IMG/VR virus record: IMGVR_UViG_3300018481_000043
Coordinates: 1-36,911 of that record
Reading direction: 5' to 3' (one strand)
DNA length: 36,911 bases
DNA from: a virus
Of the stretch, positions 2,821-33,348 are shown in pieces; position 1 is the first letter of the stretch, and each line of letters begins with the position of its first letter. The notes beneath the pieces are model-generated. The model saw nothing but the letters and a program-made list of their open reading frames with translations. It did not search any database and was not told the DNA's origin. A program made the position numbers and the translations under genes.

Positions 2821-4092
2821 TTGGCCATTATCGATAGGGTAAAAAGTGCATGGAACGCATTTCGAAATACTGAGCCAGAGGTTTATTCTCCGCAATACGG
2901 GAGTACATCTTCTTATTCTCAATCGCATAGTCGTCCTGCGTTTGGTTTCTACAACGAACGATCTATCGTCTCAGCAATCTACAACAGGATTGCGATTGAC
3001 GTAGCAGATCTTCCTATTTACCACATCTTGATGGATGAACTTGGCCGATACAAGTCTCACGTCGGGAGCCAACTGAACTATTGTTTGACAATTGAGCCAA
3101 ACATTGATCAAGCTCCTCGAGCATTCAGGCAAGACGTTGTTATGAATCTGTTTTCTTCTGGATGTGTCGCGATTGTTCCTGTTGACACTACAATTAATCC
3201 TGAAACAGGACAGTTTGACATTGATTCTCTTCGAGCTGGAGAAATCAAGGAGTGGTATCCAAAACACGTAAAAGTTGATTTGTACAACGAGGAAAAAGGT
3301 CTTCGTCAAGAAGTAGTTCTTGAAAAACGATTCGTCGCGATCATCGAAAACCCGTTGTACGCAGTAATGAATGAACCGAACTCAACTCTTCAGAGACTTA
3401 TTCGAAAGTTGAGTCTTCTCGACGCTATTGATGAACAGTCTGCTTCAGGCAAACTTGACATCATCATTCAGCTTCCTTATGTCATCAAGTCTGAAGCACG
3501 AAAGGCGCAGGCAGAACAACGTCGAGAGGATATCGAGTTCCAGCTAAAGGGTAGTAAGTATGGTATTGCTTACACTGAAGCAACGGAAAAGATTACTCAA
3601 CTTAACCGTCCTGCTGAGAACAACCTGATGAGCCAAGTCGAGTACCTGGTTAACATGCTTTACGGTCAGCTAGGTATCACGGAAGATGTAATGAACGGTA
3701 CAGCAGACGAAGCCGCAATGATCAACTACAACAACCGGACTGTTAAGCCAATTGTGGAGTCCATTGTTGAAGGCATGCAAAGATCTTTCCTAGGACCTCG
3801 AAATCTATCCAATGATGAGAGGATCCTTTACTTCAAAGATCCGTTCAAGCTTGTTTCGGCCGCAGACTTTGCCGAAATCGCTGATAAATTCACTCGTAAC
3901 GAAATCCTGTCCTCTAACGAAATCCGAGGCTACATGGGAATTCCGCCGTCTGATGATCCGAAGGCTGACCAACTGGTCAATAGCAACATTAACCCCTCGG
4001 TTCCAACAGATAGTGTCGTTACTCCGAAGCTGAAGCGGCAATTGAAAGCCGCCGAAACAACTCTTAGAAAGGAAAGTCAAAATGGAAGCTGA
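2821..4092 (+). CDS. Portal protein
   Basis: This protein forms the dodecameric ring at the head vertex through which DNA is packaged and ejected. Its 423 residues match the HK97-type portal family length. Family-like features are the NERSIVSAIYNRIAIDVADLP segment near residues 41-61 and the EYLVNMLYGQLGITEDVMNGTAD stretch at about 273-295, in the place of the family's stem and wing region. A glycine-poor helical C-terminus follows. The start is TTG 2821 after a strong GAGGAGGTGATG SD. The gene ends 11 nt inside the next one, so translation is coupled to the protease-capsid fusion. Assignment rests on family resemblance and position between terminase and protease. Confidence 0.9.
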   Translation: MAIIDRVKSAWNAFRNTEPEVYSPQYGSTSSYSQSHSRPAFGFYNERSIVSAIYNRIAIDVADLPIYHILMDELGRYKSHVGSQLNYCLTIEPNIDQAPRAFRQDVVMNLFSSGCVAIVPVDTTINPETGQFDIDSLRAGEIKEWYPKHVKVDLYNEEKGLRQEVVLEKRFVAIIENPLYAVMNEPNSTLQRLIRKLSLLDAIDEQSASGKLDIIIQLPYVIKSEARKAQAEQRREDIEFQLKGSKYGIAYTEATEKITQLNRPAENNLMSQVEYLVNMLYGQLGITEDVMNGTADEAAMINYNNRTVKPIVESIVEGMQRSFLGPRNLSNDERILYFKDPFKLVSAADFAEIADKFTRNEILSSNEIRGYMGIPPSDDPKADQLVNSNINPSVPTDSVVTPKLKRQLKAAETTLRKESQNGS

Positions 4093-6073
4093 TTTCAGCG
4101 GCTATGTCACTAAGGCTGGCGTCCGTTGCACCGATGGTCGGACTATCATGCCCGATGCATTCAAGCACCAGGACAAAGAGCAGGTGCCGCTCGTTTACAT
4201 GCATGGACATACCGAGATCGAGAACGTTCTTGGCCATGTGCAGCTTGAACACCGACCTGATGGCGTGTACGGATACGGTTTCTTCAACAAAACCGCTAAG
4301 GCCGCACATGCTCATGAGGCGGTTGAGCACAAGGACATCAAGGCGATGTCGATTTGGGCAGGCCAACTGATCCAAACGGGTAAGATGGTGGTCCATGGCG
4401 CAATCAAGGAAGTTAGTCTGGTTCTTTCCGGAGCTAACCCCGGCGCGTTGATTGACAACGTCGTTATTCGTCACTCTGATGACGGAAGCGATGACGAAAC
4501 CCTTCCCGATGAGGCCATCATCACCTCAGGTGAGGAGTTCGAGATCATTCATTCCGATACCGAGGGCGACAAGCCTGAAGAGAAGAATGAAAAGAAAGAC
4601 GAGGACAAAGACGACGTTACTCACGCTGAGGGCGACGACGATGAGTCTCTCGAAGACGTTTATGAGTCGATGAACGAAAAGCAGCAGGGCCTTCTTCATT
4701 TCATGCTTGCAGAAGCAATTGAGGGCGCCGAGTCGTTGAAGCAAGACGACGTTGATGATGACAAATCCGATGATACCAACACTAACGATAAGGAAGGCGC
4801 TGAAATGAAGCACGAGAACGTTTTCGAAAAGGGAAACGACGCTCCGAGTCACGAGATCTCGCATGCCGACATGAAGGGCATTGTCGAAGAGGGCGATCGT
4901 CTCGGTTCTATGAAGAAGGCCGTGAAGGAGTACGCTCTTGCTCACGGTATCACGGACATCGAGACCCTGTTCCCGGACGCCAAGGCTGTTACGGACACCC
5001 CGGAGTGGATCTCTCGCCGCGTTGAGTGGGTCGCTGACCTTCTCGGCAAGGTGCGGAAGAGCCCGTTCGCCAAGATCAAGACGCTTAGCGCCGATCTGAC
5101 CTATGACGAGGCTCGGGCCAAGGGTTACGTGAAGGGCACGCTGAAGAAGGAAGAGTTCTTCGGTGTCTCGGCTCGTACCACCGAGCCCAAGACCATCTAC
5201 AAGAAGCAGGCTCTCGATCGTGACGATATGATCGACATCACCGACTTCGATGTGGTGGCTTGGCTCAAGGCTGAGATGCGTCTCATGCTCGACGAGGAGC
5301 TGGCTCGTGCCATTCTCGTTGGCGACGGCCGTGACCCTTCCGATGAGGACAAGATCAGTGAGACCAACATCCGCCCCATCGCGACTGACCACGAGCTCTA
5401 CACCACTGTGGTCAACGTCAACGTTGGCGATGCTTCTTCCACAATGAACGAGGTTGTGGACGCGGTCATCACCAACCGTTGGAAGCTTCGGGGCTCCGGC
5501 TCGCCGACCTTCTTCACCACGGAGTACTGGCTTGGTCGTTTCATGCTCCTCCGGGACAACCAGGGCCACCGTATGTACAAGACCCTTGCGGATCTTGCTG
5601 CGGAGCTTCGGGTGTCGAACATCGTTGCTGTTGAGGCCATGATGTCTGACCAGTCGATCGTTGGTATCATCGTGAACCCGTCGGACTACGTCCTCGGCGC
5701 CAACCGTGGTGGCCAGGTCACCATGTTCGATGACTTCGACATCGACTACAACAAGCAGAAGTACCTGATCGAGACCCGGGTTTCTGGTGCTCTCGTCAAG
5801 GTGAAGTCTGCCATGGTCATCATGTCGACCGATTCCGACAGCGTTCTGGCTACTCCGACCGAGCCGGCATTTGTCGCCGCCACTGGCGTTGTGACGATCC
5901 CGACCGTGACTGGCGTGGTCTACAAGGACGCCGAGGGCGACACGATCCCCGCAGGTGCCATGGCTGCTATCGCCGCCGGCGCGTCTGTCACGATCTACTC
6001 GGTCCCGGCTTCCGGTTACCACTTCGCTTCTAGCGACGACGATAGCTGGACCTTCACTCGCGACGAGGCCTGA
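4082..6073 (+). CDS. Prohead maturation protease fused to major capsid protein
   Basis: A single 663-residue frame joins two activities that are usually separate genes. Residues 1-130 resemble the S78 HK97 prohead protease, with the VYMHGH histidine (H41) and the MSIW serine (S90), followed by EVSLVLSGANPGA. Residues about 130-240 are a very acidic, low-complexity linker that could act as a scaffold. From about residue 242 onward the protein matches an HK97-fold major capsid protein, including TPEWISRRVEWV, an EEFFGVSARTTEPKTIYKK region and an FDDFDIDYNKQKYLIETR segment. The final ~65 residues form an extra Ig-like module (see findings). Codon use becomes strongly C-ending after about position 4800, as expected for an abundant capsid protein. 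Confidence 0.9.
   Translation: MEADFSGYVTKAGVRCTDGRTIMPDAFKHQDKEQVPLVYMHGHTEIENVLGHVQLEHRPDGVYGYGFFNKTAKAAHAHEAVEHKDIKAMSIWAGQLIQTGKMVVHGAIKEVSLVLSGANPGALIDNVVIRHSDDGSDDETLPDEAIITSGEEFEIIHSDTEGDKPEEKNEKKDEDKDDVTHAEGDDDESLEDVYESMNEKQQGLLHFMLAEAIEGAESLKQDDVDDDKSDDTNTNDKEGAEMKHENVFEKGNDAPSHEISHADMKGIVEEGDRLGSMKKAVKEYALAHGITDIETLFPDAKAVTDTPEWISRRVEWVADLLGKVRKSPFAKIKTLSADLTYDEARAKGYVKGTLKKEEFFGVSARTTEPKTIYKKQALDRDDMIDITDFDVVAWLKAEMRLMLDEELARAILVGDGRDPSDEDKISETNIRPIATDHELYTTVVNVNVGDASSTMNEVVDAVITNRWKLRGSGSPTFFTTEYWLGRFMLLRDNQGHRMYKTLADLAAELRVSNIVAVEAMMSDQSIVGIIVNPSDYVLGANRGGQVTMFDDFDIDYNKQKYLIETRVSGALVKVKSAMVIMSTDSDSVLATPTEPAFVAATGVVTIPTVTGVVYKDAEGDTIPAGAMAAIAAGASVTIYSVPASGYHFASSDDDSWTFTRDEA
4790..4807 (+). 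promoter_or_regulatory. Internal ribosome binding site and ATG start for free capsid protein
   Basis: Inside the fusion gene, AAGGAAGG at 4790-4797 is followed 7 nt later by an in-frame ATG at 4805, codon 242. Translation from here would give a 422-residue protein, the usual size of a major capsid protein, without the protease and acidic linker. The site sits exactly at the junction where codon usage changes. This is a sequence inference; it would let the phage make far more capsid subunit than protease. Confidence 0.6.
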
Positions 6074-19433: not shown

Positions 19434-20162
19434 ATGGATATTTCCTCACTAATGGTTAACGGACGTAAGGGCATTACTAAGCATTCACCAGAGATCCTCA
19501 CGGGCATGGGTGTTGCTGGCGTGTTCATTACGTCATATTTGGCGGGTAAGGCTTCGTATGAGATGGCAATGGTTGACGAAGCCACCCAATGGACGCCAAC
19601 GCTAAAGGAACGAGTAAAAGAGCATTGGAAGCTTTATATTCCAGTGGTCTTGTCAGGTGGCGTGACCGTCGCATGCATCATTGGCGCTTCGAAGGCCAGT
19701 GGACGACGTACGGCCGCTGCTGTGACTGCATATTCTCTCACCGAGAAGGCGTTCTCCGAATACAAGGACAAGGTTGTCGAGCAGATCGGTGAGAACAAGG
19801 AACGCAAGGTTCGTGACGAAATTGCACAGGATCGCGTCGACAAGTCCTCGAACGAGGTTATATTTGTCGCGCACGGGAACGTGTTGTTCTGTGAGGCATA
19901 CACGATGCGTTTCTTCCGGAGCGACATGGAGACAGTCAAGAAGGCTGAAGTCACGATCAATCAACGCATTTACCAAGACATGTACGTCATGTTGAGTGAG
20001 TTCTATGATCTCATCGGCCTTCCGCCTACGTCCGTCTCCGATTACCTAGGATGGGATTCGGGTAATCAAATGGAGCTTCGTTGGTCAACAACGATGACAG
20101 AAGGCATGGCAGCCGAGCCGGCTCTCATGTTCGATTACAACTACGTAAAGCCAATCGCATAA
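19434..20162 (+). CDS. DUF6353-like membrane protein
   Basis: This 242-residue phage protein family is of unknown function. The hallmark N-terminus is present: GITKHSPEILTGMGVAGVF leading into a membrane span, and a second span after KEHWKLYIPVVLSGGVTVACIIG. Then a basic turn (RRTAAAVTAYSLTEKAFSEYKDKV) and QIGENKERKVRDEIAQDRV follow. The C-terminal half, with SDMETVKKAEVTINQRIYQD, FYDLIGLPPT and YLGWDSGNQMEL, forms a soluble domain. I took ATG 19434; it has no close SD but follows the previous stop by 4 nt, suggesting coupling. The gene runs into promoter P8, whose TCGCA overlaps its last codons. Confidence 0.8.
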   Translation: MDISSLMVNGRKGITKHSPEILTGMGVAGVFITSYLAGKASYEMAMVDEATQWTPTLKERVKEHWKLYIPVVLSGGVTVACIIGASKASGRRTAAAVTAYSLTEKAFSEYKDKVVEQIGENKERKVRDEIAQDRVDKSSNEVIFVAHGNVLFCEAYTMRFFRSDMETVKKAEVTINQRIYQDMYVMLSEFYDLIGLPPTSVSDYLGWDSGNQMELRWSTTMTEGMAAEPALMFDYNYVKPIA

Positions 20163-31142: not shown

Positions 31143-31580
31143 ATGAGTTTCTATATTGACGAAAACGACAATCTCAAGGCTTCGTCGGTGGTGAAGACCA
31201 TCTTCGGCGTTCTTGTCGTTTTGGTTGGGATCTGGTTGATGTTCGCTCTTGTTGGTCCTCAGCTTCGTCTGTACAGGGTCAACACCGAGAAGCAGGCCAT
31301 CATCACCGAAGCCAAGGCTCAGGCTGAGGCAGCTCAGTACACGGCGGAGAAGAACGTGGAGATCGCAGAAGCTGAGGCTGATGTTGATCGCGCTCGCGCT
31401 GCTGGTATTGCCGACTCGAACACCACAATTGCTCAGTCTCTGACGCCTGAGTATATCCAGTGGTATTTCATCGATCGGCTTGACAATGTCGATGGACAAA
31501 TCATCTATGTCCCTGGCGAAGGTCTCATCCCGATCACCGAGGCTGGACGAGCTGTTCAGGAAGAGACAAAGAACGAGTAG
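31143..31580 (+). CDS. Minimal band-7/SPFH-like membrane protein
   Basis: The 145-residue protein (ATG 31143 after AAAGGAGC) has one membrane span at about 15-38 (VVKTIFGVLVVLVGIWLMFAL). A long Ala/Glu coiled coil follows (KQAIITEAKAQAEAAQYTAE, EIAEAEADVDRARAAG), then TPEYIQWYFIDRLDNVDGQIIYVPGEGL. This matches the C-terminal part of band-7 proteins such as prohibitins or HflK, while the SPFH domain itself is absent. It would oligomerise at the membrane. A role in membrane protection or exclusion is inferred. It ends 3 nt before a 1.06 kb structured RNA region. Confidence 0.75.
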   Translation: MSFYIDENDNLKASSVVKTIFGVLVVLVGIWLMFALVGPQLRLYRVNTEKQAIITEAKAQAEAAQYTAEKNVEIAEAEADVDRARAAGIADSNTTIAQSLTPEYIQWYFIDRLDNVDGQIIYVPGEGLIPITEAGRAVQEETKNE

Positions 31581-31582
31581 TA

Positions 31583-32646
31583 ACTCGTCTGAGCGAGTAT
31601 AAACAGCGTTTAGGCTCAGAGCGGTAGTGGGAGATAAAGACGGAAAACGAAGGTGCCAGAGCCCCTGAAAAATGGGGACGGTAGCCGGAAACGGAATCGG
31701 CCGACAGTTAGCAAAAACGTCGGGTAGCCCACTACGTACTGGCTAAGGAAAAAGCCGAAAGACAGTATAGGACTCGACTTGGGGAACCTGAGCGAGACGT
31801 ACGCCTATATTGTGGTAGCAAATAACCGCTTTCGTGACGATTAGCGCCTTATCGGCGTTATGGAGCAGAGACGGGTACGCTAACTTGGCGTACATGTGTC
31901 GAACGCGCACTGAAGAGTGCTTGCGGCGAAAGGGCGGGGAGAAGAGCTCAGTGGAGCAGCAGCACAAATGGTGGCTACAAATCTTCTCCTCAACTTCTCA
32001 ATCTCGGTTCTACAGCGGAACTCTGTAGGAGTGTTAGGTGAAACCCTGGTAGGAAGAAGCGGACACAGCTCAGAGCCGTGGACGACAGGTGGAACCACTT
32101 AGCTTGAACTCGTATCGTCCCGATGGCGTGTGGCACTAGTCACATAAAGCGCACAGGGCTAAGCACGAGCGGGTCCCGGATATGCTTGCGGGACAATTTC
32201 TCGGTGGGGTGACGGCCCGTAACGCCGTGACTGAAATGAGGCGAAGTACCGACGAAAGCAAATACTCCGAAGGGAACCGTTATGAAAGGTGGTGACACGG
32301 TAGACTGAGTCCTTCCCGGATTAGGTCTTAAGACCACGCCCTGATGACGAGTTGAGGATAGTCGGGAAAGATAGCCAAAGCCACCATTTCTTGGGAGGAA
32401 GTAGGGTTAACAGTGCCCGGGTCCCTCCAGGGGTCACGCTCTGGCCTCCCACCTTTTGAATGGGGACAGTAACAGAATAGCCAATCCTCGCATCCCCTGT
32501 AAGGTTGGAGCTGTTATTGGTGGACCAGACAGGAAACACCTAACCCAGATTTTTAGTGGGGTCTCAGTTCACGCCACCCGTGACAGAGATGAGCGTCCTT
32601 CCCGCCCCCAGCGCGAGGACGTAAGAGGACGGGAGACCCGCCCCAC
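31583..32646 (+). ncRNA. Giant ornate structured non-coding RNA candidate
   Basis: Almost 1.1 kb between 31580 and 32678 holds no credible gene but many helices. Examples: ACTCG/CGAGT (31583-31598), GTAGTGGG/CCCACTAC (31624-31631 with 31728-31735), TATAGG/CCTATA (31766-31771 with 31804-31809), GTACGC/GCGTAC (31875-31893), GGAGAAGA/TCTTCTCC (31938-31945 with 31982-31989), CTACAG/CTGTAG (32010-32028), GTCCCG/CGGGAC (32173-32194), TTCCCG/CGGGAA (32313-32368), GGGAGG/CCTCCC (32393-32398 with 32445-32450), CAGTAACAG/CTGTTATTG (32467-32519) and GTGGGG/CCCCAC (32556-32646). GNRA-like GAAA loops also occur. The size and style recall giant phage RNAs such as GOLLD or ROOL, but I cannot match conserved motifs from memory. 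Confidence 0.75.
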
Positions 32647-32677
32647 TATATCTAGCAACTCAACCTAAGGAGACTTA

Positions 32678-32992
32678 ATGAATCAAACTCTGCTTGGATA
32701 TGTGTTCACCAACATAAAAGGCTTTACTTCTCTGTACGAAGAGGAGCCTGATCTTATTTCCCTGAGGCGACCTAACGGCACGAAGCTCTCAGCAAGCGTT
32801 GTTGGTCCAGCTTTTTGTCTAGTCAGTGGTTGGGATCTCAATGGATGCGTCTTGCGCGTCAACAAGAAGGACATGGCTACGGGGCCGCTTGAGATCATGC
32901 TTTGGATGGTTGAGTGCGCACCGAAGACACTGAAAGAGGTCATTCGTTTGTCCTTGGAATACGAACGACAGGAGCTTGCCGATGCCGGATGA
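32678..32992 (+). CDS. Small protein of unknown function
   Basis: The 104-residue protein starts at ATG 32678 after AAGGAGAC. It is a small alpha/beta sequence (LLGYVFTNIKGFTSLYEEEPD, RRPNGTKLSASVVGPAFCLVSGW, LEIMLWMVECAPKTLKEVI) with two cysteines. No family is recognised. It is the first gene after the giant RNA, and its SD lies 18 nt beyond the last clear helix, so it could share the RNA's transcript. It overlaps the next ORF by 11 nt. Confidence 0.65.
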   Translation: MNQTLLGYVFTNIKGFTSLYEEEPDLISLRRPNGTKLSASVVGPAFCLVSGWDLNGCVLRVNKKDMATGPLEIMLWMVECAPKTLKEVIRLSLEYERQELADAG

Positions 32993-33107
32993 ACACGGGC
33001 TTGATTTCACAGCCGCTGTCGCGATCTTCGGCATTGTGGTAGGCGGCACACTCCTGATATACGCATTGTGGGCATACCGATACGCCAAGTCGCATGAGAA
33101 GACTTGA
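32982..33107 (+). CDS. Tiny single-pass membrane protein
   Basis: ATG 32982 follows AGGAG at 32970-32974 by 7 nt and overlaps the previous gene by 11 nt. The 41-residue product has a polar start (MPDEHGLDF), one hydrophobic span (TAAVAIFGIVVGGTLLIYALW) and a basic end (YRYAKSHEKT). It is another member of this genome's many tiny membrane proteins; no family is recognised. Confidence 0.6.
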   Translation: MPDEHGLDFTAAVAIFGIVVGGTLLIYALWAYRYAKSHEKT

Positions 33108-33144
33108 TGCTTAGGTTTGTCATTTACATGGCTTCTCTTTTGTA

Positions 33145-33348
33145 ATGGAAGAGGATTGTCCGTTATCTAAGGCGATTAGATCGGGCAATCATGACGATAT
33201 TATGTGGCGGCTGTTTGACAACATGGCTGCTGGGCGAATCGTTAAACATAATAAGTCAGGTGGGAGCCGATACGATTCGACAATTGGGGAAGAGAAGAAA
33301 TCATCAGTCCACTATTGGCTCATGTTCGAATGGATGAGTCGATTCTAA
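33145..33348 (+). CDS. Small protein, possibly from a leaderless message
   Basis: The 67-residue ORF starts at ATG 33145 with no SD in front. Upstream at 33123-33136 is TTTACATGGCTTCT, followed by TTGTAATGGAAGAGG. This resembles the TACATG and TGTAATGAG parts of the phage promoters but with 7 extra bases between them. The product (EDCPLSKAIRSGNHDDIMWRLFDN, HYWLMFEWMSRF) is unknown. The start may be wrong or initiation may be leaderless, so this call is cautious. Confidence 0.5.
   Translation: MEEDCPLSKAIRSGNHDDIMWRLFDNMAAGRIVKHNKSGGSRYDSTIGEEKKSSVHYWLMFEWMSRF

Follow-up and report, generated by a model that had tools for sequence, protein, structure and literature searches.

What occupies about 1.1 kb of phage DNA in which neither strand holds a plausible gene? 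The stretch lies between a gene ending at position 31580 and a gene starting at 32678 of an IMG/VR viral contig of the tailed-phage type, with terminase, portal and DUF5906 primase/polymerase genes, which was analysed over its whole length of 36.9 kb (36,911 nucleotides; hereafter the window). An earlier note, made from the sequence letters, had seen no plausible coding frame in 31583-32646, and this was borne out: each plus-strand frame is broken by 16-19 stops, and the longest stop-free runs measure 78 codons (plus strand) and 88 codons (minus strand). The ORFs of 61-74 aa in the interval matched no Pfam family, and their sole match in PHROG was at chance level (E 0.043). The stops, together with the Pfam and PHROG results, rule out a protein-coding reading of 31583-32646 on either strand.

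The stretch opens, at its exact start and immediately after the stop codon that ends the preceding gene, with a Pistol ribozyme that the earlier note had overlooked. In cmscan, the Rfam model RF02679 matched 31583-31632 with 44.2 bits against a gathering score of 34.5. No other family of Rfam 15 matched the stretch even at E<5, which sets aside OLE, HEARO, and the group I and group II introns, all of which had been proposed for this check. The elements of the Pistol domain are the following:

31583-31632, plus strand: 5′ part of the Pistol ribozyme (Rfam RF02679)
31583-31587 with 31594-31598, plus strand: Pistol P1
31589-31593 with 31615-31619, plus strand: Pistol pseudoknot
G31613, G31621, and G31623, plus strand: catalytic residues kept (the purine, the G40 equivalent, and the G42 equivalent, respectively), by comparison with published Pistols
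31624-31735, plus strand: enlarged Pistol P3, in which 8 bp (31624-31631/31728-31735) enclose an insert of 96 nt
31736-31737, plus strand: GU dinucleotide, predicted Pistol cleavage site, from the register P3, NU, 2-4 nt, H1 across the family
31738-31740, plus strand: 3′ strand of Pistol P2, ACU, pairing with CGU at 31607-31609 in the sequence

P1, the pseudoknot made by its loop, P3, the two-nucleotide junction, and the equivalents of the catalytic purine-32, G40 and G42 are all present, whereas P2 forms two of its three pairs; P2 covaries in the family described below. The 8-bp helix spanning 31624-31735, traced earlier as one of many, exists exactly as drawn and turns out to be the P3 of this ribozyme; another such helix, 31938-31945/31982-31989, is likewise exact. 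Stem and insert of P3 start with GUAGUGGGAGAUAAAG, end with GGGUAGCCCACUAC, and resemble those of two relatives, L010 and L188; a pattern joining the Pistol to the start of the window's insert had no match elsewhere. A circular-RNA arrangement was dropped because the Rfam search gave no second ribozyme at the 3′ end.

We then asked whether the RNA beyond the Pistol has relatives. The body of the window copy had no direct DNA homologs in phage records or in the loci of related contigs, searches through the proteins encoded upstream and downstream gave none either, and no close relative emerged by either route. More distant ones were reached in three ways. Among 80 contigs fetched through the primase, a first search placed a Pistol downstream of that gene in six, to which L012 was later added as the seventh. 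In seven relatives scanned with Rfam at the gathering score, only Pistol and tRNA matched. A Pistol pattern search of IMG/VR returned 88 stretches, among them many simple Pistols whose P3 is a short hairpin and which sit near a gene. Others, a subset, follow a shared order, namely Pistol, enlarged P3, NU junction, hairpin H1, a variable hairpin H2, the A-rich strand AAACAAAAAACCG, a long-range helix P6, and more structured sequence, where H1 is of the type CUGUG-AAGG..-CACAG or CGGAG-AAGGUA-CUCCG and the distance from GCG to H1 is 17-191 nt. The second scan used a core pattern of H1 and the A-rich strand only, with no Pistol in it; it found 14 further viral loci, with a Pistol directly upstream in 13 of the 13 that had upstream sequence (three of these being repeat contigs or near-copies of ones already found), and it caught Pistol variants invisible to the first Pistol pattern. 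In cellular genomes, the same core pattern gave three matches, all without a Pistol, which look like chance.

Altogether, 34 loci including the window (33 others) parse into the same order. Because the parser had been given the spelling of the A-rich strand that is particular to the window, the window's place in this set is not independent evidence; its independent tests are the scan with a covariance model, R1, and the shuffle tests of P3-NU-H1 and P6 given below. An AUUUCU motif after a further stem, P7, occurs in only a minority of members and was dropped as a family feature.

The helices of the family are maintained by compensatory change. Across 19 members and six helices (P1, the pseudoknot, P2, P3, H1, and P6), standard pairs fill 92.3% of cells as against 73.1% in shuffles and double changes number 118 as against 37, none of 500 shuffles reaching any of five covariation measures, in a test where the 3′ strands of P6 and also the registers of P3 and H1 were chosen by pairing. 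The signal collapses when one strand slides by one column. For P3, pairing with the own partner reaches 7.4 of 8, compared with 4.3 when strands of other members are swapped in. For P6, an unanchored search gave own and swapped partners alike, and a GAC-anchored comparison was adopted for that reason; it is also the fairer test, since the covariation test had picked the P6 3′ strands by pairing. Defined as the bases right after ACCG pairing with a strand trailed by GAC, P6 forms in 24 of the 33 members against 1.3% of swapped controls, a comparison not fully independent because the anchor was spotted in the same sequences, although the swapped control shares it. P7, past the GAC, also prefers its own partner. 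Family-wide, the covariation is overwhelming.

The insert within P3 varies between members and looks exchangeable, and it is evidently optional because a few members carry a plain short P3. One insert type, GGGCGCUAAG...CUUACUGUCUG...GUCAGGCCGCCC, lies within P3 in many members, whereas L184 has it upstream of its Pistol and L111 downstream; the window-like type, GUGGGAGAUNAAG...AGCCCAC, occurs in L010 and twice in L188, where one copy is free-standing. Three-way-junction-like P3 modules were also noted outside the Pistol, upstream in L184, downstream in L111, and on both sides in L188, in the manner of RNA domains that can move. By eye, the P3 inserts of L111 and of phage Count are tRNA-like, and ARAGORN calls neither of them; a free-standing tRNA-like element that resembles the Count insert lies upstream of the Pistol in Microbacterium phage Camille (L193, ~1499-1610). 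L012 has tRNA genes on the 3′ flank of its RNA, and such genes also lie close to several further members. In the window, the nearby tRNA invoked earlier is real, a tRNA-Lys, and its position is 36367, 3.7 kb downstream of the non-coding stretch.

The Microbacterium phages Count and Camille are isolates and carry members of the family, with GUGAGCGGUGUGAUAGUCACCGAACG...AAGUAGUUAAAAAC in Count and an altered version in Camille. Both cores follow a Pistol, and their P3 sequences are different yet paired. Model R1 gives Count no score, and its assignment was made by alignment A3 with L147, L116, and L166. In Count (L007), gene calling has put a hypothetical gene within the RNA (4152-4289), annotated in GenBank as gene 88 with 45 aa, which is probably a miscall.

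Several other observations were made around these loci. A second type of post-Pistol RNA, with AAGYCCCUG after a small hairpin, was seen in Curtobacterium phage Pippin15 (L002, 4006-4280), L120, L161, L163, L172, and L173, seemingly in two copies in L161. Pistol-led non-coding stretches with CACCCATGT(G/A)ATTGA and AAACCGG in L008 (19400-19600) and L039 (15690-15910) are possibly a third type, and at 19980-20140 L008 also has a structured-looking stretch with a long closing stem, ATGGATAATGATGAG...CTCATCATTGTCCAT. At least two Pistols per contig occur in L124, L093, L117, L128, L155, L095, L125, L159, and L175, some of them only a few hundred bases apart (223 nt in L124). In L092, an H1-like hairpin and an A-rich strand recur after ~1750 (CTGTGAACTAACACAG...AAACAAAAAATTCC) and suggest a tandem copy of the core, and in Gordonia phage GMA2 (L004) a Pistol at 4001 directly follows tRNA-Trp within a dense cluster of tRNAs. 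The window itself has a further stretch of low folding energy at 33101-33300 (z -3.1), lying between small genes.

Downstream of its Pistol, the window copy offers counterparts, at different strengths, for the elements of the core:

31741-31756, plus strand: hairpin H1, GGCU-AAGGAAAA-AGCC, with the family-typical AAGG-type loop
31762-31813, plus strand: hairpin at the H2 position, 10 bp (31762-31771/31804-31813) with an inner hairpin, where other members form a variable one
31818-31828, plus strand: probable A-rich strand GCAAAUAACCG, counterpart of the family strand, with a weak match of model R1
31828-31839, plus strand: probable 5′ strand of P6, GCUUUCGUGACG, in a position that fits the family
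32252-32259, plus strand: candidate 1 for the 3′ strand of P6, ACGAAAGC, 8 Watson-Crick pairs (~1% of shuffles)
32278-32288, plus strand: candidate 2 for the 3′ strand of P6, CGUUAUGAAAG, 11 pairs including 2 G-U (~5% of shuffles)
31966-31976 with 32379-32389, plus strand: possible long-range helix of 11 bp that crosses P6; without comparative support, may be chance
31987-31995 with 32350-32358, plus strand: possible long-range helix of 9 bp, also crossing P6 and likewise without comparative support, so that it may be chance
31737-32660, plus strand: predicted non-coding RNA released by Pistol cleavage, as placed by the register of the Pistol, with no ORF and no protein family

The succession of P3, NU and H1 with its A.GG loop was reproduced in 0 of 3000 shuffles, and the stretch at the H2 position folds with z -2.7 to -3.2. 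Model R1, built without the window, found its best match in the whole window at GCAAAUAACCG, a weak one of 10 bits (E 0.72) as against 33-70 bits for known members. The two candidates for the 3′ strand of P6 are mutually exclusive, and neither is trailed by the family's GAC. No terminator-like site was found on the plus strand within 31737-32660. As judged from sequence, then, the case for family membership is strong and clear for P3, the junction and H1 and only probable for the A-rich strand and P6, and the window RNA would be a long, divergent member.

The Pistol match, the absence of coding, the family-wide covariation, and the synteny are the observations behind the reading that we favor and regard as probable: the stretch is a large structured phage non-coding RNA with a self-cleaving Pistol at its 5′ side, which is freed by cleavage and acts in trans. 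We infer the cleavage, release and trans-action as follows. The RNA would be co-transcribed with the neighboring genes, and the Pistol would cut after the P3 domain, between 31736 and 31737, freeing an RNA of ~0.9 kb with a 5′ hydroxyl and itself staying on the upstream mRNA as a structured 3′ end. The freed RNA would fold into the hairpins H1 and H2, the conserved A-rich strand, and the long-range helix P6, and most likely it would be a stable, structured, trans-acting RNA made during infection, of a kind comparable to GOLLD and ROOL but, as far as the Rfam models tell, not homologous to them.

The genomic setting bears on whether such an RNA acts in trans or on its own message. It lies on the same strand as the neighboring genes; several relatives have a primase/polymerase upstream of it, and in several a helicase gene follows (for the most part weak matches to Pfam Helicase_C; Count and Pippin15 have one by annotation). 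The immediate neighbors on both sides differ between relatives, which makes it less likely that the RNA controls any single gene, and the distance from the core to the next gene varies (hundreds of nt). Both points count against a cis-acting leader, in which the Pistol and the structured RNA would form a long 5′ UTR processing or regulating the mRNA of the gene at 32678 and onward, and a leader of a kilobase would be unusual. Such a leader would suit the AAGGAG, resembling a ribosome-binding site, and the start codon that come directly after the stretch at the next gene, as well as the many simple phage Pistols located close before genes; we nevertheless consider it unlikely.

A freed RNA presupposes a Pistol that still cuts, and here the family is mixed. 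P2 is fully paired in 8 of 28 family Pistols as against 29 of 41 simple ones, and the cut-site dinucleotide is AU or CU in 10 of the 28, so that some members may cut slowly, under regulation or no longer at all. These features, and the enlargement of P3 in most members, would fit a Pistol that no longer cuts and is retained as a structural domain within a larger folded RNA. However, the family keeps the catalytic purine, the G40 and G42 equivalents and the 2-nt length of the junction; in published Pistols the identity of the GU varies and the junction length is strictly conserved, and the window has GU, the usual Pistol cleavage dinucleotide. The loss of cutting seems to us improbable for these reasons.

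Whether anything past the Pistol is an RNA element at all depends on more than folding. The earlier note had argued from helices covering the stretch from end to end and from GNRA-like loops. In 31583-32646, perfect stems of at least 8 bp number two within 120 nt as against 0.9 in shuffles, and nine at any span as against 6.2 ± 2.2. The folding energy is unusual in 31583-31930 (z -3.5) and at chance level in the remaining two thirds past ~31930 (z -0.8 and -0.3). The helix count fails as an argument because the stems scarcely exceed shuffles and the energy stands out only in the first third, and folding energy alone proves nothing because coding stretches of the same phage score z -3.6 to -5. 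The 5′ third of the window RNA is demonstrated, and the distal two thirds folds as expected by chance. This chance-level folding, the weak model match, and the failure to find close relatives would agree with only the Pistol (31583-31740) being a real RNA element and the remainder ordinary non-coding or decayed DNA. Against this stand H1 in its exact register, the properly placed A-rich strand, the P6 candidates, and the conserved core past the Pistol in 33 relatives; moreover, a kilobase of empty DNA rarely persists in phage genomes. We hold a lone Pistol to be quite unlikely. The conclusion of a structured non-coding RNA thus stands on evidence other than the weak reasons first offered for it; the early observation mostly holds, and its interpretation is partly supported, in that comparison ties the stretch to a Pistol-anchored family absent from Rfam, as a possible new class would be.

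A divergent GOLLD or ROOL RNA, as the earlier note had also suggested from the size, the phage setting and a tRNA, and as tRNAs near or inside some relatives might recall, is highly improbable, since neither model matched the stretch at E<5 or the seven relatives at the gathering score and the conserved core includes a Pistol.

Neither the Pistol nor the notion of large structured RNAs in phages is new. The conserved RNA that joins a Pistol to the core is absent from Rfam 15, and we found no paper describing a Pistol-anchored RNA of this kind in the open-access literature, although an earlier description is possible. We lean, with some reserve, toward a new class of phage RNAs, large, modular and acting in trans, that would make their own 5′ end by a built-in Pistol, with a P3 that accepts exchangeable domains, tRNA-like ones included, in many environmental phages related to actinobacterial ones; they might form assemblies or bind to machinery of the host, as is thought for GOLLD and ROOL. 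Most phage Pistols have no known purpose, and a Pistol as the fixed 5′ domain of a covarying RNA suggests a job for it, the making of the 5′ end of a non-coding RNA. As the cultivable phages Count and Camille (Microbacterium foliorum) carry the RNA, its transcription, cleavage, structure and the effect of a knockout can be tested.

The 5′ domain of the window resembles the Pistol RF02679 in Rfam score, P1, pseudoknot, P2, P3, catalytic purines and the 2-nt junction, and differs from it in the 96-nt insert held by P3 and in the conserved non-Pistol core that comes after. Published GOLLD and ROOL RNAs are homo-oligomeric cages of unknown function. Unlike GOLLD, the present family has a Pistol-anchored 5′ end, other conserved motifs and no match to the Rfam GOLLD model; with ROOL, it has no conserved motif visibly in common, and it does not match the Rfam ROOL model. 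It shares with GOLLD the large size and structure of a phage RNA, a region of variable modules, and tRNAs near or inside some loci, and with ROOL, a large structured RNA of phages and prophages, the frequent proximity to tRNAs. If confirmed, it would join GOLLD and ROOL as another family of large, structured RNAs in phages.
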